Origin: a virus
Length of the DNA stretch: 20,029 nt
IMG/VR virus record: IMGVR_UViG_3300042937_000460
Span: 1-20,029 of that record
Reading direction: 5' to 3' (one strand)
This document shows, in pieces, positions 1,665 through 19,886 of the stretch. A program made the translations under genes and the position numbers. The notes under the pieces were generated by a model. The model did not search any database. It was not told the origin of the DNA and worked only from the letters and a program-made list of their open reading frames with translations. How positions within the stretch are numbered: the stretch's first letter is position 1; each line of letters starts with the position of its first letter.

Positions 1665-1682
1665 TTATTAGTATTACCTACG

Positions 1683-1693
1683 AATAAATATTT
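1683..1693 (-). promoter_or_regulatory. Putative late promoter of the tape-measure gene
   Basis: The coding strand reads AAATATTTATT, a close match to the window's ATATTTATWA motif. It lies 18 bases before the tape-measure ATG and overlaps the stop codon of the preceding small ORF. Confidence 0.45.
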
Positions 1694-1949: not shown

Positions 1950-1953
1950 GAAT

Positions 1954-1986
1954 GCGGACCTATAGTCCGCTCCCGGGAAAAAAAAA
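1954..1986 (-). promoter_or_regulatory. Putative programmed frameshift signal (T9 slippery run plus hairpin)
   Basis: Coding-strand TTTTTTTTT (1986-1978) encodes Phe-Phe-Phe and is followed by the 7-base spacer CCCGGGA. A perfect 6-bp stem GCGGAC/GTCCGC (1970-1965 with 1959-1954) then closes a TATAG loop that contains the zero-frame stop. Spacer length and stem placement are typical of backward-slippage sites. A -1 shift stops at 1948-1946, whereas -2 or +1 enters the 1692-1949 ORF. A homopolymer sequencing error is the main alternative. Confidence 0.6.
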
Positions 1987-2727: not shown

Positions 2728-2740
2728 AAAACGTATTTAT

Positions 2741-2750
2741 TTATAAATAT
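2741..2750 (-). promoter_or_regulatory. Putative late promoter of the gp26-like gene
   Basis: The coding strand reads ATATTTATAA, 13 bases before the ATG at 2727. Here the surrounding sequence also contains a T4-style TATAAATA on the coding strand (2745-2738), because the region is palindromic. Confidence 0.5.
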
Positions 2751-2773
2751 AAGAATAATTAATTTTATAAAAT

Positions 2774-2798
2774 AAAAAAAGCCTCTAGTAATAGAGGC
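2774..2798 (-). terminator. Rho-independent terminator after the tail tube gene
   Basis: On the coding strand a perfect stem GCCTCTA/TAGAGGC (2798-2792 with 2787-2781) with a 4-base loop is followed by seven T (2780-2774). It lies 25 bases past the tube stop codon and before the next promoter motif. Confidence 0.88.
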
Positions 2799-2822
2799 CT
2801 TTCTTTTAAGTATATAATTATT

Positions 2823-3308
2823 CTAGTAGTTAAGTACGCAATAATCCATTCCTATTGACAAAGTCAATTCAGTTGGATCAGATGTTGACCAGTCATAGTT
2901 TCCAAAAGTAGCTTCTTTAATGAAAGCACCTTTAATAATCCACTCACTTACAATATCACCTACTGGACCTAAGATAGACAAGTTAAGATCTTTCTTATAA
3001 AAGTCAGAATAACCATCACGACCAGTTACTGATTCATGGTGTAGACGTACCCACTCCATTACAGCTTGTTGGCCTGAAGGAGATACAGGGTTATAGAGTG
3101 CTAAGCTCATATCTCTCCATTCAGCTTTACCTTTTATCTTACGATAAACGTTGATATGGTCGAGTTTGATCTCATTTAAAGTTACACCTGGTGCGTCTGC
3201 CTTCTTAATCATATAAGAAGGAATACCATCAATGTACATCACAAATCTGTTTGATACTGTAGGTTCAAACGCGGTGAACATTATTTCATTAGGATCCAAT
3301 ACTGGCAT
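2823..3308 (-). CDS. Tail tube protein (T4 gp19-like)
   Basis: This 161-residue protein has the size and layout of the phage tail tube family: a beta-strand-rich start (NRFVMYIDGIPSYMIKKADAPG), a central RKIKGKAEWRDMSLALYNP segment, and a C-terminal WIIKGAFIKEATFGNYDW...TELTLSIGMDYCVL strand. Proteins of this family stack as hexameric rings inside the sheath to form the DNA channel. The start at 3308 is the only Met near the family's usual N-terminus. The gene has its own promoter-like motif upstream (3331-3340) and a strong terminator downstream, so it appears to be a single-gene unit, as fits a protein needed in many copies. It is separated from the sheath gene by one extra ORF. Confidence 0.92.
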   Translation of the reverse strand: MPVLDPNEIMFTAFEPTVSNRFVMYIDGIPSYMIKKADAPGVTLNEIKLDHINVYRKIKGKAEWRDMSLALYNPVSPSGQQAVMEWVRLHHESVTGRDGYSDFYKKDLNLSILGPVGDIVSEWIIKGAFIKEATFGNYDWSTSDPTELTLSIGMDYCVLNY

Positions 3309-3330
3309 TGTATGTTAAGTTTTATTCTAC

Positions 3331-3340
3331 TTATAAATAT
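3331..3340 (-). promoter_or_regulatory. Putative late promoter of the tail tube gene
   Basis: The coding strand reads ATATTTATAA, 22 bases before the tube ATG, which is the longest spacing of the set. A weak 5-bp hairpin (3339-3352) overlaps its upstream side. Confidence 0.5.
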
Positions 3341-3352
3341 TCGACAACGAAT

Positions 3353-3874
3353 TTATTTATCTTCTTCTTTTTTCTTCTCTTCAAAAAAACGAGTATCTGT
3401 AGATCCAGAACCTGTTTTTTGATCAAGAGATTTTCTAGCTTCAGGATCTTGTTTAATTTTATCAGCAATCATTTTAGCAATGCCAGTAATTCCTCCAACA
3501 GTTGCAAGAAAACCAGCGTTATCTTTTGCAATATCTATTGCTGGACCTATGGATTTCATCACCATGTCTAATACTTCTGATTCTTCTACTTTTTCTTTTT
3601 CTTCTACTTTAGGAGCATTCTCCATTTCTTGAATCTTACTAGAAAGCTTTTTATGTGCAGCTTTAAGTTCTTCTAAAGAATGACCTTTCTTTTTATCATC
3701 TTTCATTTCTTCTACTTTTTTCATTCCGTCTTTAGGAAGTTTTTTTTCTTTCACAACTGTCCAGTCACCATAGGTTTTACCACCTTTTTTGGCTTCAGTC
3801 AATGTCAATTGCTTTTTTACACTCTCGTATAAGTTAGCAGGTACTTTAATTCTTAAAATTGTATTATCGTTCAT
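3353..3874 (-). CDS. Lys/Glu-rich protein of unknown function between sheath and tube
   Basis: This 173-residue protein has no family I can name. The N-terminus (residues 6-30: ILRIKVPANLYESVKKQLTLTEAK) looks like a small folded element. It is followed by a very charged Lys/Glu stretch (about 40-100) likely to be helical or coiled coil, then an uncharged, Gly/Ala/Ile-rich segment (about 105-140, including GFLATVGGITGIAKMIADKI) that could be an amphipathic or membrane-associating helix, and finally a charged tail. The ATG lies 17 bases after the sheath stop with no promoter motif between, so it is probably co-transcribed with the sheath. A minor virion component or tail-assembly helper is plausible from its place only. 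Confidence 0.75.
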   Translation of the reverse strand: MNDNTILRIKVPANLYESVKKQLTLTEAKKGGKTYGDWTVVKEKKLPKDGMKKVEEMKDDKKKGHSLEELKAAHKKLSSKIQEMENAPKVEEKEKVEESEVLDMVMKSIGPAIDIAKDNAGFLATVGGITGIAKMIADKIKQDPEARKSLDQKTGSGSTDTRFFEEKKKEEDK

Positions 3875-3891
3875 CCTAAGTTTGTTTTATT

Positions 3892-5925
3892 TTATTGACC
3901 AAATGTTGTGCCAGTTGGAAGAATGTTGAAGTCAAGTTGTATGAATTCCGCAGTCTTTGTAGGCTGTAAGTATATTGTACCAACCAATTGGTTACGATCT
4001 ACCACGTCTGGTGTGTTATTAGTCTCGTCCATTACTACTTGGAATGCATAAAGACCTTGTCTTTGTTGTACTGATTCTAAGTATGGATTAACTTGATTTA
4101 AGAATTTGTTTCTTGTTACCTGAGTATTTGGTTCGAATACGATGGTTTCACCGATTTGACCTATATAATCTTTAAGAGCAATCAACAATCTTCTTACATT
4201 TACTCTATCAAGAGCAGATGGTTTTTGTTGAAGAGTCTTTTGACCGTATATTACTGTGCCAACTCCAGGGAATGTAGCGATTGGGTTAACTTTACCTTGA
4301 TAAAGTAAATTCCTATCGTTAACAGTTAATTTTCTTTCTGGTTGAAGTACTGTAGATAGAGCGCCTCTGTTAAGACCTGCGGGTGCAAACCACTCAGCAG
4401 ATACTTTATCGTTATATTCGTAAACTGCTGGTACTAGTGTAGAAGCAGGAACGAAGTTTATTTTACCAGTCTCGCGGCTTCTAATTTGTACCCACGGCCA
4501 ATAAGTTGCTCCGTAAGAGTTATCATAAGAAACTGCTTGACCAATTACTGTGTTTATTTGTTGGCCATAAGTTACCATGTCTACTACAGCTATAGCGTCT
4601 CCTCTATCTTGAGCAAGGTTTAAAATACTATTTATTGTAGAAGATGCATTTGTGCTATTCAAACCTGGAGCATAAATAACATTAAAGTCATATGCATCTT
4701 GATTACCAAGAAGGTTAATAGCTACAGCGTAATCGGCTGGATGTATACCTTGAATATTGGTTGTTGGAGTTGCAACTACTGAATTTGCAGCTGGTATTGA
4801 TTCAAAGAAATTTACTGCAGCTTTACCAAAAGAACCAAAGATTGCTCCACTAGCACTACCAAAAGCACCTTGAGCAGATCCAGATCCTAATTGAGGAAGT
4901 GAAGATGTATATTGATTTTGAGCAACACCAGTTTGATCAAAGTATCCAGGAGTAGGAAGGTTAACAGACTTAACTCTTACATAACGGCTCTTATTTTGAT
5001 AAGATCCTGTAGTTTGTAAATAGTAGTCTCCAGTTGAATCTGTACGAACACTTAAAGTTTGATCACCAATTACGTATGCAATATAATTATTTTGATTTGG
5101 ATCTAATGAAAGATTATTCCAAGTTTCAAGAATAGTTTTACTATTATTGTAGTCATCACCACGGCGAATAATTAAACTAAACACACCTGAACCAGAATCA
5201 ACTCCGGTTACTTCAAAACGAACATTAGCAGAAGATCCTGATGGTAAAGATCCATCAACAGAAATTCCACCTGTGTTGTTCATTAAATTACCAACAGAAA
5301 GTGTTTCTAATACAAAAGAAACGATATTAGCTCCACCAGAATAAAAAACAGTATTTGATCCAGAAATATAGTAATAAGAATTTCCTATAGATCCGGCTGT
5401 TTTAGAATTAAGGATCATATTAGGACTACTAAAGGATGCAGACGAGTTAGCTGTTGTACTAGCTAGAATAGAAGCTGATACTCTATTATAAACATCTTGA
5501 ACAGTAGATCCTGATAGCGTAAATTGTGCACCATTAATTATTAAGGAATATTGTGCTGCTGCTGCACTTGTTAAATCCAATGTGGCAGTAGCTGTTGCAG
5601 TTGTCGTACTTGTTTCTACGTTAGAAGTAGCAGGCTCATAAGAACCAGAAGCTACTCTAGTAACAAGAAGAGAATCTCCACCTTGTTCAAAATAGTTAAG
5701 TGCTGCAATAGATGTAAGATATTCGTAGTTAGCTCCACCAGAAACAAACGCTCCTCCAAAAAGGGCTTTATATTCTGAATAAGAAGTTACTATTGTTGGA
5801 ATATTTACTGGACCAATTACTGTAGGACCTAAAAGAGCTGCACCAGCAGCAATTGGACCTTGTGTTATTTGGGATAGATCGTTTTCATTTAAGAAAACTC
5901 CTGGGCTAATAAGTGTTTCGGCCAT
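3892..5925 (-). CDS. Contractile tail sheath protein (T4 gp18-like)
   Basis: This 677-residue protein is close to the length of T4 gp18. The N-terminus (SPGVFLNENDLSQITQGP..AALLGPTVIGPVNIPTIVTSYSEYKALFGG) is the conserved sheath opening that joins neighbouring subunits. Residues about 95-340 are a Ser/Thr/Ala-rich beta insertion, likely the surface-exposed variable domains. The conserved C-terminal half contains WPWVQIRS, FVPASTLVPAVYEYND, a GVGTVIYGQKTL segment and RRLLIALKDYIGQIGETIVFEPN, all typical of the sheath core. The protein surrounds the tube and contracts to drive it through the host envelope. A late-promoter-like motif at 5945-5954 precedes it and no terminator follows, so the 173-residue gene downstream is probably on the same transcript. 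Confidence 0.95.
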   Translation of the reverse strand: MAETLISPGVFLNENDLSQITQGPIAAGAALLGPTVIGPVNIPTIVTSYSEYKALFGGAFVSGGANYEYLTSIAALNYFEQGGDSLLVTRVASGSYEPATSNVETSTTTATATATLDLTSAAAAQYSLIINGAQFTLSGSTVQDVYNRVSASILASTTANSSASFSSPNMILNSKTAGSIGNSYYYISGSNTVFYSGGANIVSFVLETLSVGNLMNNTGGISVDGSLPSGSSANVRFEVTGVDSGSGVFSLIIRRGDDYNNSKTILETWNNLSLDPNQNNYIAYVIGDQTLSVRTDSTGDYYLQTTGSYQNKSRYVRVKSVNLPTPGYFDQTGVAQNQYTSSLPQLGSGSAQGAFGSASGAIFGSFGKAAVNFFESIPAANSVVATPTTNIQGIHPADYAVAINLLGNQDAYDFNVIYAPGLNSTNASSTINSILNLAQDRGDAIAVVDMVTYGQQINTVIGQAVSYDNSYGATYWPWVQIRSRETGKINFVPASTLVPAVYEYNDKVSAEWFAPAGLNRGALSTVLQPERKLTVNDRNLLYQGKVNPIATFPGVGTVIYGQKTLQQKPSALDRVNVRRLLIALKDYIGQIGETIVFEPNTQVTRNKFLNQVNPYLESVQQRQGLYAFQVVMDETNNTPDVVDRNQLVGTIYLQPTKTAEFIQLDFNILPTGTTFGQ

Positions 5926-6864: not shown

Positions 6865-8070
6865 TTAAAATCTGGAGTTGTATTCATCAAATACACTAAC
6901 ATATTCTGGACCCTCAAAAGCAACACCAGAAGATGCTGTAGTAAAAAGTAAAGCCCCTATATGAAAAGCAGAATACTCTGGAAGGTTAGGTGTACCTATT
7001 TGATCTACAACTTGATAATCCATTTCTCCTGCTGTATCTGCTCCAATCCTACCGGTCCTCGAACCAACAAGTACAGGTCCAGGAACACTAAAATTGTACG
7101 CATCAATAGTACTAAACGCCTCTCCAAGTCCTGATGGATATCTTGCAACCTTATACACTATAAAATACCAATCACCTAAAATTACATTTCCTACTTGTGA
7201 TTCAAGAATTTTTCTACTATTTCTTATTGTATATCCTCTAATAGTTCCTGTTAATGAAGAAGTTGGATTTGCGTGAGCTACTAATCGTATTCCATTTAAT
7301 CTACCAGAAGAATTATCTTTTCTTCCAAGCATTTCAAATATACCGCCTTCTTTATCTGCTGCTGTTTGGCCTGGGTAACTATCTACCCATTTATTTATTC
7401 GAATTACTACACCCAACCAATAGGATTTGTTATATAAATTTATTAAAGAAGTTAATTCTCCATTATCATCTAAAGTTTGATGATCATAACCAACATTTTG
7501 ATTTAAAACTAAAGCTTGAGACACACCACTTCCTGTAATTTGAACGTATCCTATACCAGAAACATTATTAGATTGTAAATCATATGCATTAATTGTTCCT
7601 AAATTATCTAAAAATCCATTTGCTGGATTATAACTACTGCTATATGGATCAAATTTCAAAAGAAATTGATTTCCTGTAGATGCTGCAGTAGTAGTAGTAG
7701 TTGTAGTACTTGTAGTAGTAGTTGTTGTTGTCGTTGGTGTAAATGGATCTCCTGTGCAATCAAAAAAATTACTATAATCACATAAAGGGCCACTTATATT
7801 TGTTATTTGTATTCCTGTTAAACTATAACCAGTTGGAGTATCCACAACTTGGCTTGATCCAGAAATTAAAGTTACTGTTGATGTTCCTGATCCTGGTGTA
7901 TCGTCTTGCCAATCATATGTAATGTCAACATCACAATTTACAGGGTATACAGCAGTTGATTTACATTCTTGAAGAAAACTTCTAAATCTAACAGTTTCTC
8001 CAATAGCTCCTATTATTCCAGTTTTAATAGCAATACTATAATTTGTACCTATTAATGTTACAAAGTACAT
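6865..8070 (-). CDS. Probable virion/adhesin protein with Thr-rich linker and lectin-like C-terminal domain
   Basis: This 401-residue protein has two parts. The N-terminal part, residues 1-110, is beta-rich with four Cys (36, 46, 97, 105). A linker at 111-128 is almost pure threonine (one Pro, one Ser). The C-terminal part, residues about 135-401, begins FLLKFDPYSSSYNPANGFLDNLG and contains YWLGVVIRINKW, LGDWYFIVYKVARYP and a final AFHIGALLFTT strand. This pattern of strands resembles concanavalin/LamG-like sugar-binding sandwiches, though I cannot confirm the family. It lies 10 bases after the 212-residue gene without its own promoter motif, so it is probably co-transcribed with the two genes before it. 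Context suggests a receptor-binding or virion-decorating protein. The Thr linker is a possible O-glycosylation site. Confidence 0.72.
   Translation of the reverse strand: MYFVTLIGTNYSIAIKTGIIGAIGETVRFRSFLQECKSTAVYPVNCDVDITYDWQDDTPGSGTSTVTLISGSSQVVDTPTGYSLTGIQITNISGPLCDYSNFFDCTGDPFTPTTTTTTTTSTTTTTTTAASTGNQFLLKFDPYSSSYNPANGFLDNLGTINAYDLQSNNVSGIGYVQITGSGVSQALVLNQNVGYDHQTLDDNGELTSLINLYNKSYWLGVVIRINKWVDSYPGQTAADKEGGIFEMLGRKDNSSGRLNGIRLVAHANPTSSLTGTIRGYTIRNSRKILESQVGNVILGDWYFIVYKVARYPSGLGEAFSTIDAYNFSVPGPVLVGSRTGRIGADTAGEMDYQVVDQIGTPNLPEYSAFHIGALLFTTASSGVAFEGPEYVSVFDEYNSRF
7687..7740 (-). repeat. Thr-codon triplet tract (Thr-rich linker)
   Basis: There are eighteen codons, sixteen of them ACN Thr, with one CCA and one AGT. 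Runs of ACT and ACA make it an imperfect trinucleotide repeat that could change length by in-frame slippage without breaking the gene. Confidence 0.85.
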
Positions 8071-8733: not shown

Positions 8734-9078
8734 TTATTGTGGTTGTGGATTACTTAACCAAGGTGCTTGTTCAATTAATACAGGAGGATTAATTTGATTT
8801 TCTATTTGTTGAGCTACGTTAGCTTCATAGTTTTGCATACTAGCTGTACCCATTGACGCAGTCATCCAATTATATACTATATCATAAGTTAGATCATTAA
8901 AAGGAATAAATAATGATCCTGTTTCATAAGTAACTCCTTGAGTTCCTATTACTGAGCCTTGATAAGATCCTGTAGATCCATAAAGTTGCCAATGTACTAA
9001 GAATACTACATTATCTTCGCCAGATGCCGTAGGATACGCTTCTAGTGGATTGAAATTCCAATTGTAAGTTATTGCCAT
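8734..9078 (-). CDS. Small conserved-looking phage protein downstream of the tail fibre
   Basis: This 114-residue protein starts MAITYNWNFNPLEAYPTASGEDNVVFLVHWQLYG, followed by GSVIGTQGVTYETGSLFIPFNDLTYDIVYNWM and a helical AQQIENQINPPV ending in a Pro-rich tail. It has a small beta domain followed by a C-terminal helix. I recall a widespread phage family with this 'AITY-W---LE-YP ... VVF-VHW' layout and a 'QI--QI-PP' end, without a known function. The ATG is one base past the fibre stop. A promoter-like motif for this gene is embedded in the last fibre codons. A link to fibre assembly is only suggested by position. Confidence 0.78.
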   Translation of the reverse strand: MAITYNWNFNPLEAYPTASGEDNVVFLVHWQLYGSTGSYQGSVIGTQGVTYETGSLFIPFNDLTYDIVYNWMTASMGTASMQNYEANVAQQIENQINPPVLIEQAPWLSNPQPQ

Positions 9079-9079
9079 A

Positions 9080-12000
9080 TTATTTGCTTTGTAATAAATA
9101 TTTTAATTCGTCTATCTGTTTTTGTTGTTCTTTTATTGCTTCTACTAGTAATGCTGTTATGCTTTTATCTCTTAAAGATAATAAACCATTTTCATTTTCT
9201 CTAACTAATTCAGGGAGTATTTCTTTTACTTCTTGAGCTATAAATCCAATATCATCTTTTATACCTGTCATTTTACTTATTTCTGTATCTTCTTTCCATG
9301 TAAAAGATACACCTTGAAGTTTTATGACTTTATCTAAAGATCCGGTTAGAGGTTTAATATTTGTTTTAAGAGTAATGTCTGATGGGGACCCATAAGCTAC
9401 TAAGTCTCCGGCAGCCGTTAATGTACCAGTAGAACTTATTAATACTTTAGCAACATTATCAACATAAAATTTATATTGATCATCTGAATGAAACATCAAA
9501 GTACTAGATTCAATTCCTATACCATATGATGTTGTTGCTGTAGCTGCTTTATATAATAATATTTGATAATCAGTAAAGTTACTAAATCCCCCTGCGCTTA
9601 CATTATTACCTATTTGAAGTTGACACGCAGGAGAAGCATCTCCTATTCCTACTCTACCGTAAAAATAAGTATGATTTGATGTACCTCCATTTATTGTTAA
9701 GTAAGTATGAGAATCATCTCTTATATCACTTCTAAATCTTACGGTATTTTGAAAATAAGATCCTCCTGTAGAATTAGCATAAAAATAACCTGTTCCATTT
9801 ACTACTAAACCACCAGCATCTCCATTAAGATATATACCATTTGTATTTGATATATAAAGTGAACTTCCTCCTATAGATCCGTTAACATCTAAGGTGTAAG
9901 ATGGAGAAGCTGTAGACCCTACACTAATACCACCTCCTAAAGGTTGTAATGAAAGAGGATAAGCTATATCAGCTACTGAACCATGACGCATTTGAAGCCA
10001 TCCATAAAAAGGAGAATTTTCATATACTCCAAATGTTAAAGCAGTTGTTGCTGTTGATTTAATAACTATAGCGCCTGTTGGTGATGTGCCAGATAATGTT
10101 GGAGTGTTATTACTATCTATTTGTAATTTACCTGTTGGAGATGTAACTCCGATACCAACATTACCACTACCATTAATAGTTACTCTTTGTGATGCAGCAA
10201 AATTATCATAAATAGCAAAATTACTACTTGCATCTATGCCTATACCATAAGTTATTGATGTCTGAGAACTTGCTTGGATTGTTATAGCATTATTGCTTGC
10301 TGCTCCTGTATTAATTTGTAATTTTCCAACTGATGGTGTTGTAGTACCTATACCAACATTACCTCCTGCAGGTTGTAAACTTAAAGCATTTGTATTATAA
10401 ATATATTTTAATAAGTTATTACCGGCCGTACCATAAAAATTTATAGTATCTGCAGAATCATAATTTGATTGTATATCAAAATAATAAGTAGCTGGTGAGC
10501 TTGCTGTAGAGAGTCTAAGTACAGCTCCATTACCTTGTATTTCTAGTTTTTGAGCAGGAGTTGTAGTACCTATACCTACATTGCCATTATTTATATTATA
10601 GTATGTTGTTCCTCCTGTAGAAGATATATTATATCCTGGTGAACATGGATGTTCTAAAACTGTAGAACTATATGCAGGGGTAGTTGTAAAAATAAAAGTT
10701 TCACTATTAAGTGGAAATAATTCTACATAAACAGTTGTTGGATTAGGTACCGCATTTGTAGTTTTTATAGCTATATCAAAATTAGCATCATTATCACTAG
10801 TTATTTTTACAGTAATAGGAACATAAAGTCCAGAAAAACTTTGTATTACAATATCTTGAGAATGGTTTACTAAAATTTCAATAGTAGAATTAATAACAAC
10901 ATTATTAGAAGTACCATGGACTGTCATTCTTATACCTGCTGCTAAATTATCTCCAGTAACATTACCTATATTAACATAGGCACTACTTGTAATATTTGAT
11001 ACTGTATTTTTATATCTTCTAGATGCAAATTGATTAGTTCCAAAAGACATTTCACTACCAGAAATAGTACCATCAACTTCTAATTTTGATGTTGGATTTG
11101 TAGTACCTATACCTACATTACCACCATTTAATATAGTAAATCTCCATTGTCCACTTGAGTAAACTCCAAATGCACTTGTTGACGTAGTACTTTGAAGTCC
11201 AACAAATACATCTTCTGAGCCATCATTGCCTGTTAACCAAAATCCAGGGGTTGTAGATGTATCAGACCTAAACTTAAGTCTTCCTATTACATCTAATTTT
11301 TGATTGGGAGTTGTATTATTTATACCAACATTACCTCCATTTAAAATAGTAACTTTAGAACCTCCTGCTGTTTGTAGTTGTATATTATATCCTTGATTAT
11401 TTAATACCGTATCTCCTGTCGAACTATCGTATAATTTTAATGTAGTAAAATTAGCGGCTCCAATTGTTCCATAAGCATTACCTTGACCAATTACTGCATT
11501 ATTTGATATAGATAAAATTCCATTTACTTGTAAAGATCCTGTAGGAGAAGTTGTACCTATACCAACGTTTCCATTACTTCTCCAAGACATTACGTCAGTA
11601 ATGGTAGCTGTATCAGTGTTTGATAATCGTAAATCTAATTGCACTCTGGTATTTACACTATCAGCTTGCCAACGAGACATATCAAACGCAGCTAATCCAC
11701 TATAAACTACTCCACTAGTTCCATCTCGTAATAAAGAAAGAACATTAGTTCTAGATGCAGTTTGGTCAACCCCAATAGAGGTTATTATTGCGCCTGTGTT
11801 AGTGAAAGTATGACTTGATAGATCAGAAAGAGCTACTCCAGTGTGTAATCTTGCAAGAGGGCTTGTAGTACCTATACCTAGATTTGTACCATCAAAAATA
11901 AGATTAGCTTCGGCATTTGCTGCATTAGCAGTACCATCTGAAGTTAATACTCTATTATCTACTGGATTTGCTACTGTGTTAAATCCTGTTCCTGAAGATC

Positions 12001-15000
12001 CGCTACTTCCTGATGATCCTGTACTGCCACTTGAACCACTAGATCCACTAGAGCCTGAAGATCCTCTTGTACCTGATGAACCAGAACTTCCAGAAGATCC
12101 ACTAGATCCTGTACTACCTGATGAGCCGCTACTTCCTGTACTACCGCTACTACCTGAACTTCCTGTTGAGCCACTTGAACCAGAAGATCCACTAGAGCCT
12201 GAAGATCCTCTTGTACCTGATGAACCAGAACTTCCAGAAGATCCACTAGATCCTGATGAACCTGTTGTTCCGCTAGAGCCTGAGCTTCCTGTAGTACCTG
12301 ATGTTCCAGATGTGCCACTAGATCCTGATGAGCCAGTAGTTCCTGAGCTACCTGATGTACCTGAAGATCCTGATGATCCTGCAGATCCAGAAGTGCCAGA
12401 TGAGCCAGATGAACCTGTTGTACCAGATGAGCCAGATGAGCCTGTTGTTCCACTAGAGCCAGAGCTACCTGATGTTCCTGATGATCCACGAGTACCTGAG
12501 GTACCAGAACTTCCTGATGTGCCTGCTGTTCCACTAGAACCTGAAGATCCTGCAGTGCCTGCGCTTCCTGCTGATCCTGCAGTACCTGAACTTCCTGAGC
12601 TACCACTTGTTCCAGATGTGCCTGAGCTACCACTTGTTCCAGATGAACCACTAGAGCCAGATGTTCCACTAGATCCTGCAGCCGCTAACCATGTAGAACC
12701 GTTAAATCTGTAGATATTATTGTCTGTGCTATTATAATATATTTGCCCTGCTGAGGTTCCTATTGGATTGGCAGCCGATACCGGTATTCTTAGAGAGCCT
12801 GTTATAGAAACAGATCCGGTAAACTGATGCGTATTAGTTAATAAAGACCCATTAACACTTGAACCAGTAATAAATTCTCTAGAAGAAGTTACTTCTTGTA
12901 CATTTAAAGTTTGAGCTACAATGTTTCCAACAACTGTAAGAGTTGTACCATCAAAAGTTAGATTGGCTTCTGCGTTTGCTGTATTAGTTGTACCTAATGA
13001 CGTTAATATTCTATTATCTGCTGGATTTGTGATAGTATTAAATCCAGTACCTGATGTGCCACTGGAACCACTACTTCCTGATGTACCAGATGATCCTGAA
13101 CTACCTGTAGTACCTGAAGATCCAGCAGAGCCAGTTGTTCCGCTAGAGCCTGAAGATCCAGATGTGCCTGTACTACCAGAGCTTCCTGATGTGCCAGCAC
13201 TACCGCTACTTCCAGTTGTACCGCTTGAACCAGAAGATCCTGCTGTGCCTGAAGATCCTGAACTACCAGATGTACCAGCTGATCCAGAGGAGCCAGATGT
13301 TCCTGAACTTCCTGATGAACCTGCAGTACCTGCGCTACCTGATGATCCAGATGTTCCACTAGATCCAGAAGTACCCGATGTTCCTGTACTACCTGATGAA
13401 CCTGTTGTTCCGCTAGAGCCACTGCTACCTGTTGTGCCAGAAGATCCTGAGGAGCCAGTAGTTCCACTTGAACCAGATGATCCTGATGTACCTGTGCTAC
13501 CTGATGATCCTGATGTTCCTGATGATCCACGAGTACCTGAAGTACCAGAACTTCCTGATGTTCCTGCAGTGCCTGCACTACCAGAAGTTCCAGATGTTCC
13601 TGAAGATCCTGACGAACCAGTTGTTCCACTAGAGCCTGAACTACCTGCTGTTCCGGCGCTGCCACTACTACCTGATGTTCCTGAGCTTCCAGATGAACCA
13701 GCGGTTCCTGCACTACCTGCGGATCCCGATGTGCCACTTGATCCAGATGAACCTGTAGTACCACTAGAGCCAGAGCTACCTGATGTTCCTGATGATCCAC
13801 GAGTACCTGATGTTCCTGAACTACCGCTACTGCCTGACGTTCCACTTGATCCAGCACTACCAGTTGTACCAGAGCTACCAGATGAACCAGTTGTTCCGCT
13901 AGAGCCTGAGCTTCCTGTAGTACCACTAGAACCTGCACTACCTGATGTTCCAGATGTTCCTGAACTACCTGATGTTCCAGATGTTCCTGAACTACCTGAT
14001 GTGCCTGTTGAACCAGAGCTACCACTAGTTCCAGTTGATCCAGAAGTGCCGCTAGAACCAGAGGTTCCTGATGAACCTGCGGCTGCTAACCAAGTAGAGC
14101 CATTAAATCTGTAGATATTGTTATCTGTACTGTTATAATATATTTGACCTGCAGATGTACCAACAGGATTGGCTGCTGATACAGGTATTCTTAAAGATCC
14201 TGTTATAGAAACAGAACCAGTAAATTGATGAGTGTTTGTTAGTAGAGATCCATTAACAGTTGATCCTGTAACGTATTCTCTTGACGACGTTACTTCTTGT
14301 ACATTTAAAGTCTGAGCTACAATATTGCCAACAACCGTAAGTGTTGTGCCATCAAAAGTTAGATTAGCCTCGGCATTTGCTGTATTTGTAGTTCCAAGTG
14401 ATGTTAATATTCTATTATCAGCAGGATTTGTTATTGTGTTAAATCCTGTACCTGATGTACCGCTAGAACCACTGCTTCCTGAAGTACCAGCAGTTCCACT
14501 AGATCCACTACTACCTGTTGTACCAGCAGAACCAGAACTACCAGATGTTCCTGTACTTCCAGAAGAGCCTGATATTCCAGAAGATCCAGAGCTACCTGAT
14601 GTTCCAGAAGATCCTGATGAGCCTGTTGTTCCACTTGAGCCAGATGAACCTGTTGTACCTGAACTTCCTGATGAGCCAGTTGTTCCAGAAGATCCCGAGC
14701 TACCTGAAGATCCTGTACTACCAGAACTTCCTGATGTACCACTAGATCCTCTAGTTCCAGATGTTCCTGAACTTCCAGATGTACCTGCAGTACCTGAGCT
14801 GCCAGAAGAACCTGATGTGCCACTAGATCCTGATGAGCCAGTTGTTCCACTAGAACCAGAGCTACCAGTAGTGCCGCTTGATCCCGAACTTCCAGATGTA
14901 CCTGCAGTTCCTGCACTACCAGATGTACCACTAGTACCTGCTGAGCCAGATGATCCTGTAGTACCGCTTGAACCGCTACTTCCAGTTGTGCCTGAACTTC

Positions 15001-16783
15001 CACTACTACCTGAAGTACCAGATGTTCCTGAACTGCCTGATGAACCTGCGGTACCAGTACTACCAGATGAGCCAGATGTTCCACTTGATCCAGACGAGCC
15101 AGATGTTCCTGAACTACCTGATGAACCACCACTACCAGAAGTACCGGTTGATCCTGATGTACCAGATGAACCAGAAGATCCAGTTGTACCAGATGAACCA
15201 GAAGATCCAGTTGTACCAGATGATCCGCTACTACCTGAAGTACCTGTGCTACCAGATGAACCAGAAGTTCCAGAGCTTCCTGCGGTGCCAGAGGTACCGC
15301 TAGTACCAGAAGTTGCGGCAGTAAATGATGTACCGTTTATAGTTAGTGATCCTGTTATAGAAACAGAACCTGTAAATTCATGAGTATTACTTAATTCACT
15401 ACCAAATATAGTCGATCCAGTTACAAAATCTGTTGAAGAAGTTATAACTTGCGCAACTATAGTTTGAGCTGTAAGCGTTCCTGTTATTAAAACATTAGAG
15501 GCAGTTATATTCTGTCTAACAAAAAAGTTATCTGCTGATGATGCTGTTAAAGCATTTATTGCCCAACTAGAAGTGCCAAATAAAGATCCAGTAATACCTT
15601 GAGATACTATAAGCGAACCTGTAATTATTCCATTACCTGTTACTTGGAATCTAGATCCAAAATCACTAGTTTGTCCAACTATTAAATTACCGCCAAGCCA
15701 AGTAGAAGTTGTTGATGTATTACCAATCCAAGTTCTATTTGAATCACTTCCGGTTACACCTACAGATATATTACCAATAAAAATATTATTTTCTCCTGTA
15801 GTATTATTATTTACTCCAGTGCCATACCCCGCTCTATATCCTATAGCAGTATTATTATTACCAGTTGTACTACCTAATAAAGCTTGCAAACCCATTGCAA
15901 CATTATTAGATCCAGATATATTGCTTACTAAAGCAGAAGTTCCTACTGCAACATTAGAAGATCCTACTGCGTTTAGATAAAGAGATCTCCATCCTACTGC
16001 AGTATTATTATTAGATGTATTTAAGTGTAATGATTGATATCCAACTGCTGTATTGCCTGCTCCTACTATACTGGAACTGAGTGCTTGAGTTCCTATTGCA
16101 GTATTTTGAATTCCTGAAGTATTACTTAAAAGCGCCCTATCTCCAATAGCCAGATTAGATACGTTACCTCCACCTTTACCAATACTAATACTATTTATAC
16201 GCGCATCAAAACTACTAGTTAAGTTATCTACTATAGCACTAGAACCAGAAATATATGAAGCAGATATAGAATTTAAAACAAAAGATGCAGTTTGTGCATT
16301 AATTGCCCAACTTGCAGTTCCTTGTAAAGAACCTGTAAGTCCTTGAGTAGATATAATAGATCCGGTTACTTGAAATATAGAACTACCTGTATCATAAAAA
16401 AGATTAGCGGAAGCAGACGCGTTATTAGTACTGCCATCTGAAAGTAAAACTCTTCCTTGTAAAGGATCTGCTATTGTATTAAAACCTGTTCCTGAGGTTC
16501 CAGACGAGCCAGAGGATCCACTTGAGCCTGACGTACCATTTGCGCCAGATGTACCTGATGTACCGTTTGCTCCAGAAGTGCCCGATGATCCATTTGCGCC
16601 TGATGTACCTGAAGATCCATTTGTTCCACCAGTTCCACCGCCACCACCTGCGCCATAATAAAAGTTACCTTCTTCATCTGAAACTACTGTTCTAGTAGCT
16701 GAATTGTTTTCATTCAGATTAACTTTAAGAGTATTGAACCTGGCGTTACCGTCTTGTTTTGGCGCTTCTATACGAAATCCCAT
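9080..16783 (-). CDS. Giant tail fibre with Gly-Ser/Thr triplet segments, YadA-like head repeats and S74 chaperone
   Basis: This 2567-residue protein is probably a trimer that reaches from the tail to the host. In order: residues 1-47, virion-anchoring start; 48-100, 491-780, 903-1247 and 1370-1600, Gly-X-Y triplets made almost only of SSG, TSG, TTG and AG units; 100-490, beta region with YadA-head-like repeats (about 208-335, e.g. NTAIGTQAL, NTAVGYQSL); 781-902 and 1248-1369, two nearly identical connecting modules; about 1600-2450, some nine 'GNVGIGTTxPxxKLxV' repeats; 2468-2567, a peptidase S74 intramolecular chaperone. The S74 dyad is visible as Ser2468 and Lys2473 in SDITLKTNI, so self-cleavage before Ser2468 is expected, followed by a coiled-coil end. 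A promoter motif (with one mismatch) precedes the gene. The glycosyltransferase fusion ends 32 bases upstream. Confidence 0.93.
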   Translation of the reverse strand: MGFRIEAPKQDGNARFNTLKVNLNENNSATRTVVSDEEGNFYYGAGGGGGTGGTNGSSGTSGANGSSGTSGANGTSGTSGANGTSGSSGSSGSSGTSGTGFNTIADPLQGRVLLSDGSTNNASASANLFYDTGSSIFQVTGSIISTQGLTGSLQGTASWAINAQTASFVLNSISASYISGSSAIVDNLTSSFDARINSISIGKGGGNVSNLAIGDRALLSNTSGIQNTAIGTQALSSSIVGAGNTAVGYQSLHLNTSNNNTAVGWRSLYLNAVGSSNVAVGTSALVSNISGSNNVAMGLQALLGSTTGNNNTAIGYRAGYGTGVNNNTTGENNIFIGNISVGVTGSDSNRTWIGNTSTTSTWLGGNLIVGQTSDFGSRFQVTGNGIITGSLIVSQGITGSLFGTSSWAINALTASSADNFFVRQNITASNVLITGTLTAQTIVAQVITSSTDFVTGSTIFGSELSNTHEFTGSVSITGSLTINGTSFTAATSGTSGTSGTAGSSGTSGSSGSTGTSGSSGSSGTTGSSGSSGTTGSSGSSGTSGSTGTSGSGGSSGSSGTSGSSGSSGTSGSSGSTGTAGSSGSSGTSGTSGSSGSSGTTGSSGSSGTTGSSGSAGTSGTSGSAGTAGTSGSSGSSGTTGSSGSSGTTGSSGSSGTSGSSGSSGTAGTSGSSGTSGTRGSSGTSGSSGSTGSSGSSGSSGTTGSSGSSGTTGSSGSSGTTGSSGSSGTSGSSGSSGISGSSGSTGTSGSSGSAGTTGSSGSSGTAGTSGSSGSSGTSGTGFNTITNPADNRILTSLGTTNTANAEANLTFDGTTLTVVGNIVAQTLNVQEVTSSREYVTGSTVNGSLLTNTHQFTGSVSITGSLRIPVSAANPVGTSAGQIYYNSTDNNIYRFNGSTWLAAAGSSGTSGSSGTSGSTGTSGSSGSTGTSGSSGTSGTSGSSGTSGTSGSAGSSGTTGSSGSSGTTGSSGSSGTTGSAGSSGTSGSSGSSGTSGTRGSSGTSGSSGSSGTTGSSGSSGTSGSAGSAGTAGSSGSSGTSGSSGSAGTAGSSGSSGTTGSSGSSGTSGTSGSAGTAGTSGSSGTSGTRGSSGTSGSSGSTGTSGSSGSSGTTGSSGSSGTTGSSGSSGTTGSSGSTGTSGTSGSSGTSGSSGSAGTAGSSGSSGTSGSSGSAGTSGSSGSSGTAGSSGSSGTTGSSGSAGTSGSSGSTGTSGSSGSSGTTGSAGSSGTTGSSGSSGTSGSSGSSGTSGTGFNTITNPADNRILTSLGTTNTANAEANLTFDGTTLTVVGNIVAQTLNVQEVTSSREFITGSSVNGSLLTNTHQFTGSVSITGSLRIPVSAANPIGTSAGQIYYNSTDNNIYRFNGSTWLAAAGSSGTSGSSGSSGTSGSSGTSGTSGSSGSSGTAGSAGSAGTAGSSGSSGTAGTSGSSGTSGTRGSSGTSGSSGSSGTTGSSGSSGTTGSSGSSGTSGSAGSSGSSGTSGSSGTTGSSGSSGTSGTSGTTGSSGSSGTTGSSGSSGSSGSSGSSGTRGSSGSSGSSGSSGSTGSSGSSGSTGSSGSSGSTGSSGSSGSSGSSGTRGSSGSSGSSGSSGSTGSSGSSGSSGTGFNTVANPVDNRVLTSDGTANAANAEANLIFDGTNLGIGTTSPLARLHTGVALSDLSSHTFTNTGAIITSIGVDQTASRTNVLSLLRDGTSGVVYSGLAAFDMSRWQADSVNTRVQLDLRLSNTDTATITDVMSWRSNGNVGIGTTSPTGSLQVNGILSISNNAVIGQGNAYGTIGAANFTTLKLYDSSTGDTVLNNQGYNIQLQTAGGSKVTILNGGNVGINNTTPNQKLDVIGRLKFRSDTSTTPGFWLTGNDGSEDVFVGLQSTTSTSAFGVYSSGQWRFTILNGGNVGIGTTNPTSKLEVDGTISGSEMSFGTNQFASRRYKNTVSNITSSAYVNIGNVTGDNLAAGIRMTVHGTSNNVVINSTIEILVNHSQDIVIQSFSGLYVPITVKITSDNDANFDIAIKTTNAVPNPTTVYVELFPLNSETFIFTTTPAYSSTVLEHPCSPGYNISSTGGTTYYNINNGNVGIGTTTPAQKLEIQGNGAVLRLSTASSPATYYFDIQSNYDSADTINFYGTAGNNLLKYIYNTNALSLQPAGGNVGIGTTTPSVGKLQINTGAASNNAITIQASSQTSITYGIGIDASSNFAIYDNFAASQRVTINGSGNVGIGVTSPTGKLQIDSNNTPTLSGTSPTGAIVIKSTATTALTFGVYENSPFYGWLQMRHGSVADIAYPLSLQPLGGGISVGSTASPSYTLDVNGSIGGSSLYISNTNGIYLNGDAGGLVVNGTGYFYANSTGGSYFQNTVRFRSDIRDDSHTYLTINGGTSNHTYFYGRVGIGDASPACQLQIGNNVSAGGFSNFTDYQILLYKAATATTSYGIGIESSTLMFHSDDQYKFYVDNVAKVLISSTGTLTAAGDLVAYGSPSDITLKTNIKPLTGSLDKVIKLQGVSFTWKEDTEISKMTGIKDDIGFIAQEVKEILPELVRENENGLLSLRDKSITALLVEAIKEQQKQIDELKYLLQSK
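9083..9382 (-). other. Peptidase S74 self-cleaving chaperone domain of the fibre
   Basis: These are the last 100 residues. They start with Ser2468-Asp and have the catalytic Lys five residues later (SDITLK). They continue through FTWK, IGFIAQEV and LPELV, all family hallmarks, and end in a coiled coil of about 25 residues. In characterised S74 proteins the domain trimerises the fibre, then cuts itself off. Confidence 0.88.
9092..9101 (-). promoter_or_regulatory. Putative late promoter inside the 3' end of the fibre gene
   Basis: The coding strand reads ATATTTATTA, 13 bases before the ATG at 9078. The same bases encode the Tyr-Leu-Leu near the fibre C-terminus. It would serve the 114-, 212- and 401-residue genes. 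Confidence 0.45.
11984..12676 (-). repeat. Gly-Ser/Thr triplet segment 4 of the fibre
   Basis: There are 231 codons of Gly-X-Y with X and Y mostly Ser, Thr or Ala and occasional TRG. Proline is absent. Ser and Gly codons vary from unit to unit, so no long exact DNA repeat forms. Confidence 0.9.
12681..13040 (-). repeat. Connecting module B of the fibre (duplicate of 14082-14441)
   Basis: These 120 codons encode a beta module (ITNPADNRIL to STWLAA). It matches module A at 116 of 120 residues by my alignment but differs at about 59 of 360 bases, nearly all synonymous. Confidence 0.88.
13043..14077 (-). repeat. Gly-Ser/Thr triplet segment 3 of the fibre
   Basis: There are 345 codons of Gly-X-Y triplets, the longest of the four segments. 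Nine-residue super-repeats such as SSGSSGTTG recur. It is flanked by modules A and B. Confidence 0.9.
14082..14441 (-). repeat. Connecting module A of the fibre
   Basis: This is the upstream partner of module B, 1401 bases (467 codons) away in the same frame. The four residue differences (Tyr/Phe, Val/Ile, Thr/Ser, Val/Ile) are all conservative. Confidence 0.88.
14444..15313 (-). repeat. Gly-Ser/Thr triplet segment 2 of the fibre
   Basis: There are 290 codons of Gly-X-Y triplets, starting after NGTSFTAA and ending in SGTG-FNTI, the same junction that ends every triplet segment here. Confidence 0.9.
16484..16642 (-). repeat. Gly-Ser/Thr triplet segment 1 of the fibre
   Basis: There are 53 codons, beginning with a Gly-rich run and then SSG, TSG and ANG units. 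It is the shortest segment and the only one with repeated Asn (ANG). Confidence 0.88.
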
Positions 16784-16798
16784 CTTGGACTATCTTTC

Positions 16799-16808
16799 TA
16801 ATACATAT
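16799..16808 (-). promoter_or_regulatory. Putative late promoter of the fibre gene (one mismatch)
   Basis: The coding strand reads ATATGTATTA, one base off the ATATTTATWA motif, 15 bases before the fibre ATG and just past the stop of the glycosyltransferase fusion. Confidence 0.4.
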
Positions 16809-16815
16809 TTGAGAT

Positions 16816-18903
16816 TTATGAATTATTTAGATGTAGACTAATAGCTTTTATAACTTCTTCTCCTGATATTGTTTTACTACACTCAAATTGTCTTTGTGTT
16901 CCTTTATGTTTTGGACACCAATTCCAATCTCCTGGGTCTAGTTGATGTGTATTAAAACAACCTTTGCAGAATCCATCTTTTGTATAAAGTCTAATTGCAT
17001 CTTCAAACTCAGTTATAGGATCAGAAAAACCTGATATTACACACGTTTTTGTTCCTAATGCCCAACTAAGCCAACTAAGACCACTACTAATTCCGATAAA
17101 CATTTGCGACTTTTGTATAGTCTCTATAGTAGTCTCCATACTATTGTCTTTCATATATTCCACTCCTATAGGATTTTTATTTCCCATATATCCGTCTTCT
17201 TCTCTTGAAACTAATACGACTTTATATCCTTCTTTTTTTAGATAGTCGACTACTTTTTGCCACCCTGTTTTATTATTCCAGTATTTAGCTTGAGCTGTAC
17301 TATGAACTGCTATTGATATAATCTTTTCTTTCTTTATACTTTTATCAACTGTTATTCTAGGTCTTAGTTCTTTATATTCTAAACCTAAAATATCAGACGC
17401 TGTTTGTTGAAGAGGAATATGCTTAAAGTCTTTAGGGTTTTTATTATAGTCAATAGTTCCATCTTCATTATAGAACCATCCTATAGTATACATTGCATAA
17501 AGGTTATTAACCGCTTCACCTGGTTTAGCAAACTCAAAATTAGGATATTCTTTTTCAAAGAAGTGATTCCAGAATGTTGAAGTTATTATTTTACAATTAT
17601 GTTTCTTTTGAAACTCTTCTACGTAAGGAAACCATGCTAGTGTATCGCCTAAAGATTTTGAGTCTAGTGCAATATAAACTCTTTTATCTTTTAAGTCTAG
17701 ATTATATTCATACTCATGAATTCCATCAAAAGCTTTTATTTTCCAGTCAACAAAACTTTGTTTGCTAGCTTTAATCCAACAATTAGAAGATATTTTTCCT
17801 GAGTGTAAAACTTCATTCGTTTTGTTATTTATAAAAGACACGTCATAATCTAATTGCTTGCCTCCTACGATTTCAAAGAATGCTGCTTGAATAAAGTTAA
17901 TGTTAAATTGAGGAACAGGTTCTTTTGAAGGTATGGCTAATATATTTGTACTTTCGTAACCTTGTATAAGTTGATCTTTCATAGTGTTAGAATATTTTTT
18001 TAATAGCTCTTTTGTTCTATTCATCCACGATAATTCTAAAGCTGTTGTTTTAGCTAGTTTAGAATATCTGAGGTACTTTATTGGGCTTATTAATTTAGAT
18101 ACAGCTTCTACTATCTGATCTGTATTTCTTTCTACTTTAATTAGACCTTTTAATTCATTATTGTCTTCATATGTTCCTACTACAGGAAGCCTAGATGCCA
18201 TAGCTTCAAGCAACGTTAAATTAGGATGGCCTGCCTCTAATATAGATGCGTGAACAAATATACTATGTTCTTTATATAAGTCTCTTAATTCATCTTCAGT
18301 TAAATCATAAAGAATAGTAAGTTTGTCATAATCAGGAGGAAACTTTTCAAAGTACTTTTTGTTGTTACTAGGCCCTGCTATAGTAATAGGAAGGTCTAAT
18401 TGTTTTGCAGCTTCAATAGCATAACTAAATCCTTTTCTATCTTCAGACTGATCATGAATAAATCCATTATTTGCTACACATAACAATCTATGTTCTTTAA
18501 CTCCTGTAGGAGTAAAATAGTCTGTGTTTACTCCATGAGAAAAGTATTCAGGTATTCCTTCAAAGTAGTCTACTAGGAATTTAGCAGGCACAAATGCTTT
18601 TTTAGCATTCTTTATAGCCTTTAGATTTTCTTTATAGCTACTAGAATCTTTACCATATAAGTAAGCATGGTGATCATGCATAGTGAAGTAATAAGGAATG
18701 CCTCTTTCATGCGCCAGGTTCGCTAGATTTGCCACATGGATGTGTACTATGTCATAGTCGTTTACATCGTCCAGATACGCGATTGTGGAGTCATGGCCTA
18801 GTTTTAGAAGGCAGTTATGTATCTCCCATATAATCTTTTCTACGGCTCCCCAACCATTTGGAGGGATGGGTATTAAACCTGGGGTAACATTGATTATTTT
18901 CAT
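16816..18903 (-). CDS. GT4 glycosyltransferase fused to autotransporter-type O-heptosyltransferase (BAHT/TibC-like)
   Basis: The protein has 695 residues. Residues 1-310 look like a GT-B fold GT4 enzyme: an N-terminal GWGAVEKIIWE segment, a nucleotide-binding half, and HASILEAGHPNLTLLEAMASRLPVVGT, where the two acidic residues (Glu223, Glu233) are nine apart rather than the usual seven. Residues about 335-400 form a beta linker domain (FFEIVGG...NCWIKASK...WKIKAFDG). Residues 405-695 match the bacterial autotransporter heptosyltransferase family: SKSLGDTLAWFPYVEEF, HSTAQAKYWNN (534-544), IGISSGLSWLSWALG (603-617), SGFSDP, then CxxC-x13-C-x11-C (Cys646, 649, 663, 675), the layout of that family's iron-binding finger. 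Known members add heptose to Ser of adhesins. The neighbouring fibre is an obvious candidate substrate. The true donor sugar and acceptor are unknown. The gene starts five bases after the upstream stop, so the two are co-transcribed. Confidence 0.85.
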   Translation of the reverse strand: MKIINVTPGLIPIPPNGWGAVEKIIWEIHNCLLKLGHDSTIAYLDDVNDYDIVHIHVANLANLAHERGIPYYFTMHDHHAYLYGKDSSSYKENLKAIKNAKKAFVPAKFLVDYFEGIPEYFSHGVNTDYFTPTGVKEHRLLCVANNGFIHDQSEDRKGFSYAIEAAKQLDLPITIAGPSNNKKYFEKFPPDYDKLTILYDLTEDELRDLYKEHSIFVHASILEAGHPNLTLLEAMASRLPVVGTYEDNNELKGLIKVERNTDQIVEAVSKLISPIKYLRYSKLAKTTALELSWMNRTKELLKKYSNTMKDQLIQGYESTNILAIPSKEPVPQFNINFIQAAFFEIVGGKQLDYDVSFINNKTNEVLHSGKISSNCWIKASKQSFVDWKIKAFDGIHEYEYNLDLKDKRVYIALDSKSLGDTLAWFPYVEEFQKKHNCKIITSTFWNHFFEKEYPNFEFAKPGEAVNNLYAMYTIGWFYNEDGTIDYNKNPKDFKHIPLQQTASDILGLEYKELRPRITVDKSIKKEKIISIAVHSTAQAKYWNNKTGWQKVVDYLKKEGYKVVLVSREEDGYMGNKNPIGVEYMKDNSMETTIETIQKSQMFIGISSGLSWLSWALGTKTCVISGFSDPITEFEDAIRLYTKDGFCKGCFNTHQLDPGDWNWCPKHKGTQRQFECSKTISGEEVIKAISLHLNNS

Positions 18904-18908
18904 AGTCT

Positions 18909-19886
18909 TTATTTAAATCTAACAAAGCTTTTACTTGTAAGTATTCCTTCTTTAGTATATTTTTTAATGTAGTTTCCTACTGTCATAGTAAATGTATCAC
19001 TATTAGAATCTACTATTTGTGATAAGTATTTTTTAGATAGCGGTAATTTTGTTGATATAATATCGTTTATTGAGAAATTAATATATTCATTAGCATCGCC
19101 GTTATTGTTATTAATATAAACAAACGCTATCTTGTCTGTATTTTCAACTTTTACTAATCGTAATTCAAAAGGATGTGTCATACCGTCTTCTCTAAATGAT
19201 GTTAGTGATGTTTTACTATCTTTAAAATACTCGCTAAAATGAGCACTTTTTATTATCATGATATCATCTAATTTATTTTGGCTTTTTAATGAACAATATA
19301 AAAAATTTTCTAGAATTCCAAAGCTTTTATTTTTAAAGCATTCTTCATTATAGTCATCTATATTTTTACAATTAGGAAAATTATTTAAAAAATAATCAAC
19401 TCCACAACAAAATATATTCGTCTCTAATATAGGGTCAGATTCTAAAGAAAAAAACCAACCATTTTTTTGTTCTAACTCTGATTGTTTAGTAAGACTTTTA
19501 ATTTTTTCAATATCAGATAGTGAATATTCTGAATCTGATTCTATGTAGTAAAATTTAGCATAATAATCTTTTGCAAATCTTAGACCATTTACTATTAATC
19601 TATATATAGCAAATCCAGGATGTGTTGACGATCCTTCTATATATCCTTGGAAGTAAAACTGATCGCAGTCTCCATATATATAAACGTCTTCATTTACAAC
19701 CATTTCATTTCTATAGTCATAGATGTAATAGTTAACCATATTTTGTGTTTCAAAATCCGCAGGATAATGAGTACATAACATGATATCAAAATGCTCTTTT
19801 AAACTTTTTATGCAATTTTTTAATATCTGTTTAGATTTTTCAGAAGAGGGATATGATCCTAATATGACTAAATCTTTTTTTACCAT
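18909..19886 (-). CDS. Possible glycosyltransferase (GT-A-like), not firmly identified
   Basis: This 325-residue protein starts MVKKDLVILGSYPSSEKSKQILKNCIKSL, a Rossmann-like opening of strand, loop and helix. It has two acidic motifs that could bind a metal-sugar nucleotide: YGDCDQFYF (residues 71-79) and YYIESDSEYS (113-122). The second follows a GLRFAKDYYAKF helix in the manner of GT-A enzymes. The C-terminal part (about 245-325) is a separate beta-rich portion with AFVYINNNNGDANEYINFSIND. I do not recognise a named family. A sugar-related job is inferred from these motifs and from being directly upstream of the GT4-heptosyltransferase fusion. Its start overlaps the stop of the gene before it (TAATG), which implies coupled translation. 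No late-promoter motif precedes it. Confidence 0.55.
   Translation of the reverse strand: MVKKDLVILGSYPSSEKSKQILKNCIKSLKEHFDIMLCTHYPADFETQNMVNYYIYDYRNEMVVNEDVYIYGDCDQFYFQGYIEGSSTHPGFAIYRLIVNGLRFAKDYYAKFYYIESDSEYSLSDIEKIKSLTKQSELEQKNGWFFSLESDPILETNIFCCGVDYFLNNFPNCKNIDDYNEECFKNKSFGILENFLYCSLKSQNKLDDIMIIKSAHFSEYFKDSKTSLTSFREDGMTHPFELRLVKVENTDKIAFVYINNNNGDANEYINFSINDIISTKLPLSKKYLSQIVDSNSDTFTMTVGNYIKKYTKEGILTSKSFVRFK

Follow-up and report, generated by a model that had tools for sequence, protein, structure and literature searches.

A candidate phage-encoded O-glycosylation system for a proline-free, collagen-like fibre

The viral DNA stretch IMGVR_UViG_3300042937_000460 (IMG/VR, positions 1 to 20,029; the whole 20,029 nucleotides are referred to as the window) encodes, on its minus strand, a fusion glycosyltransferase of 695 residues (16816–18903) and a giant fibre of 2567 residues (9080–16783). 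As read from the sequence, the pair probably represents a phage-encoded system for O-glycosylation, most likely heptosylation, of the phage's own fibre, which contains long proline-free, collagen-like arrays of Gly-Ser/Thr triplets. Sequence analysis establishes the genes, their domain architecture, the conserved catalytic and iron-finger residues, and a specific genetic association of enzyme and arrays. A first-pass annotation of the window had placed the enzyme gene 32 bp upstream of the fibre gene, which our coordinates confirm, and had linked the two by adjacency and family knowledge. This link is now strengthened by the genetic association, which is seen both in phages and in bacterial chromosomes, and the interpretation that the phage would glycosylate its own fibre gains support from the co-occurrence tests and the bacterial gene neighbours described below.

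The N-terminal part of the enzyme (residues 1–314, 17962–18903) is a GT4-type domain, as delineated by phrog_33732 and by Pfam models for glycosyltransferase group 1, and is followed by a TibC-like (GT9-type) protein O-glycosyltransferase domain (residues 351–689, 16837–17853), as delineated by alignment with TibC and by a 106-sequence alignment. Pfam matches are Glyco_trans_1_4 (43 bits) and Glyco_transf_9 (30 bits). The model hepto_Aah_TibC (TIGR04414) scores 291.1 bits, at a cut-off of 200, over residues 352–688 only; the earlier description of the protein as a homologue of autotransporter O-heptosyltransferases thus holds for that region, but had overlooked that residues 1–310 form a separate GT4-type domain. 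Identity as a lipopolysaccharide (LPS) heptosyltransferase is ruled out by the scores, which are 291 bits for TIGR04414 and 23.5 for LPS heptosyltransferase I. The closest solved relative is TibC (phmmer 2e-58), and an AlphaFold model that draws on 20 phage homologues (pLDDT 84.6, pTM 0.55) has TibC as its top match in the PDB (4rap/4rb4; E 1e-29, TMt 0.83). The predicted fold is TibC-like, with a beta-barrel in addition to the GT-B catalytic domain. At loci L062/L063, L054, L074, L136 and L151, too, the TibC-like domain is joined to varied partners of glycosyltransferase type, the largest of these proteins having 1527 residues.

In TibC, D110 is the catalytic base, T226, K230 and W305 belong to the donor site, and C339, C342, C358 and C370 form the iron finger (PMC4358343). 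D110, T226, K230 and W305 correspond to D420, T536, K540 and W611 of the window enzyme, and the iron-finger cysteines to C646, C649, C663 and C675 (16879–16968). The catalytic Asp, the counterparts of K230 and W305, and all four cysteines are conserved in 106/106 of the diverse homologues aligned. At the position of P300, which determines heptose stereoselectivity in TibC (PMC4358343), the window enzyme has Ser, the same as Aah.

That the enzyme acts instead on a surface glycan or a protein of the host, e.g., for superinfection exclusion or receptor masking, is an alternative already raised in the first-pass annotation. GT9 LPS heptosyltransferases are distant homologues, and the gene lies in multi-glycosyltransferase clusters, in some relatives together with sugar-nucleotide enzymes and methyltransferases; however, the domain belongs to the protein-modifying TibC branch, as the scores given above indicate, the gene sits within a late tail module, and the link with arrays is found also in bacteria without phage context. 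We therefore regard a host target as quite improbable, and it accounts for less of the data than does modification of the fibre.

The fibre is recognized by the Pfam models Collagen (376 bits) and Peptidase_S74 (61 bits), and by tail fibre models of PHROG. From the N-terminus to the C-terminus it consists of a short array (residues 44–100, 19 triplets, 16484–16654), YadA-like TA(I/V)G units (about residues 211–325, 15809–16153), three long arrays (residues 493–780, 96 triplets, 14444–15307; residues 903–1247, 115 triplets, 13043–14077; and residues 1370–1600, 77 triplets, 11984–12676) separated by two near-identical spacer modules of ~122 residues, a non-repeat region, and the S74 intramolecular chaperone (residues 2468–2528, 9200–9382). 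The four arrays are uninterrupted Gly-X-Y blocks amounting to 307 triplets, or 921 residues, in good agreement with the ~919 proline-free codons counted earlier. Ser or Thr occupies X in 301/307 and Y in 260/307 triplets (91% of X/Y positions; 561 Ser and Thr together), and the 614 X/Y positions include six Arg and no Pro. With a longest run of 115 triplets the fibre has the long uninterrupted Gly-X-Y stretches of collagen-like proteins, but not their proline-rich X/Y positions.

The triplets are built from 122 different 9-mers, which rules out an artefact of DNA slippage, and the serine codons are a mixture of TCN and AGY; the repeat is therefore maintained at the protein level. With regard to the YadA-like head repeats proposed earlier, the periodicity is evident, with units spaced 16–17 residues apart from residue 211 onwards, but the units are not recognized by Pfam YadA models at E ≤ 1e-3. 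On the plus strand, the arrays cast antisense shadows in the form of three long open reading frames (ORFs; 11841–12713, 12921–14114 and 14325–15383), which abound in P-E/D/L/V triplets and present a trap for annotation.

Co-occurrence of this enzyme type with Gly-Ser/Thr fibres, the check suggested in the first-pass annotation, was examined in both directions and with controls, and the outcome was positive. The viral contigs were sampled from among the matches listed and include related phages, with no correction for the tree, so that the p-values overstate independence. Among contigs fetched solely by a GTS-GSS-GTS DNA pattern, the enzyme is present in 21/44, and in 13/16 of those of at least 70 kb. 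A control set fetched by a DNA pattern for Pro-type collagen arrays, nearly all of which are true GPX arrays, gave 0/35 and 0/9, respectively (Fisher p = 3e-7 for all contigs and 1e-4 for those of at least 70 kb); since the same model did detect the enzyme in the Gly-Ser/Thr set, the absence of hits in the control carries weight. Conversely, arrays, called at three or more pattern matches, occur in 45/68 enzyme-bearing viral contigs of at least 40 kb, 28/38 of at least 70 kb and 17/20 of at least 100 kb, i.e., the share climbs with contig size.

Phages that have the same tail sheath but lack the enzyme carry arrays in 0/9 contigs of at least 40 kb. Within the same-sheath family the comparison is 2/3 versus 0/74 (p = 0.001) when arrays that run off the contig end are set aside; for this reason three same-sheath contigs with an array and no enzyme (L192, L231 and L232) were not counted as counter-examples. 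The Ser/Thr-type arrays near the enzyme, for which a Ser/Thr content of at least 45% was required for inclusion, comprise 7093 triplets over the sampled loci, with X/Y positions occupied by 57% Ser, 25% Thr and 1% Pro. A strict rule of enzyme-fibre adjacency was rejected for phages, in which the two genes are only exceptionally direct neighbours, as they are in the window.

The same association is seen in bacterial chromosomes. In Methylobacter, Methylomicrobium and other Methylococcaceae, a stand-alone enzyme gene lies ~10 to 1000 bp from a gene for a small protein with GTSGTSG/GSSGSSG runs, and equal pairing over this range of distances is found in metagenome-assembled genomes (MAGs) of Polaromonas, Acidiferrobacterales and a gammaproteobacterium; in a Schekmanbacteria MAG the two genes are 5 kb apart. 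In 2.6–9.2 Mb of sequence, these last four have no other array, or very few others. By eye, the N-termini of the bacterial array proteins resemble signal peptides or lipoboxes, and the proteins are hence putatively secreted. A survey of 301 genomes of Methylococcales, the order of Methylobacter luteus, identified a phage-like homologue (303–327 bits) in nine, eight of which have an ORF with Gly-Ser/Thr repeats within 1.5 kb (p = 1e-7 compared with arrays anywhere in the remaining 292 genomes, a contrast that is understated, since many of the 26 matches in that background are something other than Ser/Thr arrays). In the ninth, the enzyme lies beside an exported homologue of the array proteins (L280, genome G287, minus strand, about 2700–3700), in which a poly-Ser tract takes the place of the GTS triplets, a hint that the density of hydroxyl groups may matter more than the spacing of glycines. 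Six Methylococcales genomes with classical enzymes (654–663 bits) have no adjoining array, and those of their flanking ORFs that were inspected resemble AIDA.

These data bear on whether enzyme and arrays are merely fellow travellers in large freshwater phages that are rich both in glycosyltransferases and in Ser/Thr-type fibres, with no functional link between them. That the sampled phage contigs are interrelated and non-random speaks for such hitch-hiking; however, it is at odds with the empty Pro-type collagen control, with the bacterial chromosomes, in which the pairing recurs on about three distinct tree branches, and with the absence of the pairing beside classical sister-clade enzymes in the same bacterial order. 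We consider hitch-hiking highly improbable, slightly more so than a host target.

Scanning for the TibC-like domain yielded at least 592 viral stretches that encode a relative, and 28 bacterial or archaeal loci in 84,980 genomes, a comparison biased by scan patterns that were derived from phage proteins. A tree of 106 sequences separates two clades, each with 99% support in the Shimodaira–Hasegawa-like approximate likelihood ratio test (SH-aLRT): the classical enzymes, from Escherichia, Pelosinus, Selenomonas, an alphaproteobacterium and the Methylococcales group, and all remaining phage and bacterial enzymes. The clade of the window enzyme is thus, by sequence phylogeny, the sister of the known autotransporter heptosyltransferases. 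The bacterial enzymes with array neighbours fall in about three places within the second clade, although the strongly supported branches alone also allow a single origin. Neither the ORF list nor Pfam revealed an autotransporter gene in the window. Given the separate clade, the missing autotransporter partner and the loss of an arginine equivalent to TibC R286 (see below), we do not file the enzyme as a true member of the BAHT family of autotransporter heptosyltransferases, but as a BAHT-like sister clade. A literature search on phage-encoded enzymes of the TibC-like family returned nothing relevant among the papers it covered.

Two database phages illustrate the range of the clade. An uncultured phage of 735 kb (L080, LR756501.1) encodes a GT4-TibC-like fusion 3.7 kb from an array of 44 triplets. 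The isolated and completely sequenced Microcystis phage Mel-JY01 (L081, PP395634.1) encodes a GTS/GSS fibre of 805 residues (635–3052, plus strand) two genes upstream of a 1227-residue fusion that has the TibC-like domain at its end; in the deposited annotation, most of this fibre is replaced by an antisense ORF (739–2298).

We propose that the TibC-like domain would transfer a sugar, most likely heptose from nucleoside diphosphate heptose (NDP-heptose), to Ser/Thr hydroxyls of the fibre triplets. By analogy with TibC, transfer would take place in the host cytoplasm, on the fibre chains, and by an oligomeric enzyme. The fusion suggests that a second sugar comes from the GT4 domain, which would thereby extend or diversify the glycan, and a GT-A-like neighbour of 325 residues may add another. 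From the composition of the arrays, a dense sugar coat could take the role of proline/hydroxyproline in holding Gly-X-Y extended and stable, and would shield the triplets from proteases. The acceptor role of the arrays, heptose as the sugar, the order of the two transfers, and stiffening or shielding are what we infer from these features.

Alternatively, the enzyme might target another Ser/Thr-rich tail or fibre protein, or several virion proteins, with the arrays as one target or a minor one. In many relatives the gene lies beside the tail sheath or array-free fibres, the window fibre itself has 24% Ser/Thr outside the arrays, one bacterial homologue adjoins the poly-Ser protein mentioned above, and poly-Thr occurs in a protein encoded nearby in the window. 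This would leave unexplained why co-occurrence is specific to Ser/Thr-type and not Pro-type arrays, and why in bacteria the array protein is a small, isolated neighbour of the enzyme; we judge it unlikely, although less so than the other two alternatives. The poly-Thr tract (PTTTTTTTTSTTTTTTT) follows the N-terminal domain of a 401-residue protein (6865–8070, minus strand), which is a further possible acceptor.

Several observations weigh against glycosylation of the arrays with heptose. At L007–L014, at L021–L053 and in most of the clade of stand-alone 385-residue enzymes there is no array within 10 kb, and about half of the tested contigs in which the enzyme forms an operon with HldE genes lack an array anywhere on the contig, as does the enzyme-bearing L061 contig of 176 kb; three array contigs of at least 70 kb lack the enzyme. 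No heptose-pathway genes were seen in the 20-kb window, and with respect to the donor nucleotide, R286, which contacts adenine in TibC and so confers specificity for ADP-sugars (PMC4358343), is replaced by T592 in the window enzyme. For the array-free members of the HldE-operon clade, another Ser/Thr-rich fibre may serve as acceptor. At one HldE-operon locus, a fibre of 2301 residues upstream of the enzyme cluster (L123:3-6908) has a weak match to Intein_splicing over residues 1860–1997 (31 bits, below the Pfam cut-off).

Arg is found at the R286 position in 9/9 classical rows of the alignment and in 12/78 phage rows; most of the clade has Val (most phages), Ile, Leu or Ala. The loss extends to phages with HldE genes in the operon, and we therefore dropped the reading that it signifies loss of heptose use. 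In ~30 phage contigs a split HldE directly follows the stand-alone enzyme gene, and the reading frames overlap by at most a few bases (L123:11026-12160, L134, L148, L129, L181 and ~25 more viral loci). The 129-residue product has rfaE_dom_II as its top NCBIfam match (86–103 bits, versus 51–71 for glycerol-3-phosphate cytidylyltransferase), and the 250-residue product, a shortened kinase, has rfaE_dom_I (95–117 bits). Both scores fall short of the curated thresholds, and in the PDB it is cytidylyltransferases that the adenylyltransferase-like protein matches, so that more than one donor nucleotide is conceivable. The contig of L016, a phage related to that of the window and with an enzyme 61% identical, carries homologues of HldE-II, HldE-I and HldD (169 bits), in a row and preceded by a cupin-like protein (88.9–90.9 kb; L301:7930-9867), and at L174 and L182 enzyme, arrays and HldE genes share a single neighbourhood. 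A GmhA homologue was found in 1/35 records (the L063 contig), and a full phage heptose pathway was therefore rejected as a general feature. According to a commentary (PMC11461863) on the 2024 Science paper of Tang et al., viruses own functional NDP-heptose enzymes whose viral role is unclear, and some enzymes of this class also yield cytidine and uridine diphosphate heptose (CDP- and UDP-heptose). A donor site that lacks R286 would be in keeping with this.

The remaining genes place the pair in its context. The putative GT-A-like neighbour (18909–19886, minus strand), a probable second glycosyltransferase, precedes the enzyme gene by 5 bp. Pfam and PHROG searches with this protein gave no family match; its AlphaFold model (pLDDT 80) has weak Foldseek matches to GT-A enzymes, including the PBCV-1 capsid glycosyltransferase (2p6w, E 1e-4), and homologues adjoin the enzyme at L003, L007, L018, L022 and L028. 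Directly after the fibre, in the same operon-like run, lies a gene for a DUF7936 protein (8734–9078, minus strand; Pfam 87 bits), an order kept in L018. A contractile-tail module (1960–5925), identified with Pfam and PHROG, comprises baseplate (1960–2727), tube (2823–3308) and sheath (3892–5925) genes, and the cluster therefore sits in a myovirus tail region. The phage is water-borne, and the best host hint comes from the nearest isolate of the sheath, Flavobacterium phage immuto (52% identity), which has no annotated glycosyltransferase in the region inspected.

Protein O-heptosylation is mainly known from gram-negative adhesins. We lean, by a modest degree, towards a widespread and apparently undescribed phage and bacterial system, in which the BAHT sister clade hyper-glycosylates proline-free Gly-Ser/Thr repeats with heptose, the sugar acts as a stabilizer of the rod, and many phages supply their own NDP-heptose pathway. 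If this is true, it would add a much larger, phage-centred branch of O-heptosylation, represented by the viral stretches counted above, with a new type of acceptor; it would explain the stability of proline-free Gly-Ser/Thr collagen-like stretches, and would give a role to virus-encoded NDP-heptose enzymes, the function of which the commentary describes as open (PMC11461863). Microcystis phage Mel-JY01 is an isolated phage that carries both the enzyme and an array fibre.

Among known systems, the BAHT family (TibC and Aah, autotransporter strand-loop-strand O-heptosyltransferases; TIGR04414) is similar in its fold, which is predicted here, in the catalytic Asp, the Thr, Lys and Trp residues of the donor site and the iron-finger cysteines, as well as in having a Ser-rich repetitive protein partner; heptose-pathway genes, moreover, are present in the operon of many phage relatives. 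The phage enzymes differ in forming a sister clade, in the loss of R286 and in lacking an autotransporter neighbour, and the window enzyme differs further in its fusion to a GT4 domain and in its partner, a Gly-Ser/Thr triplet protein. Mimivirus L230, a collagen lysyl hydroxylase and glucosyltransferase acting on a collagen-like, proline-poor viral protein (PMC9614988), is likewise a viral enzyme that glycosylates a collagen-like viral protein; however, it belongs to a different enzyme family and to a eukaryotic virus, and places glucose on hydroxylysine. The likeness to BclA of Bacillus anthracis/cereus spores, where glycosylation has been proposed to stabilize the collagen-like region via hydration (PMC8968730), concerns the acceptor; BclA is a spore-surface protein rather than a phage fibre. 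Together, BclA and L230 serve as precedents for a sugar that stabilizes or shields a Gly-X-Y rod. Glycans on mycobacteriophage capsid and tail-tube subunits, described as a shield in work cited in PMC12619734, are comparable in that virion proteins are the glycosylated acceptors, but these proteins differ from the fibre.

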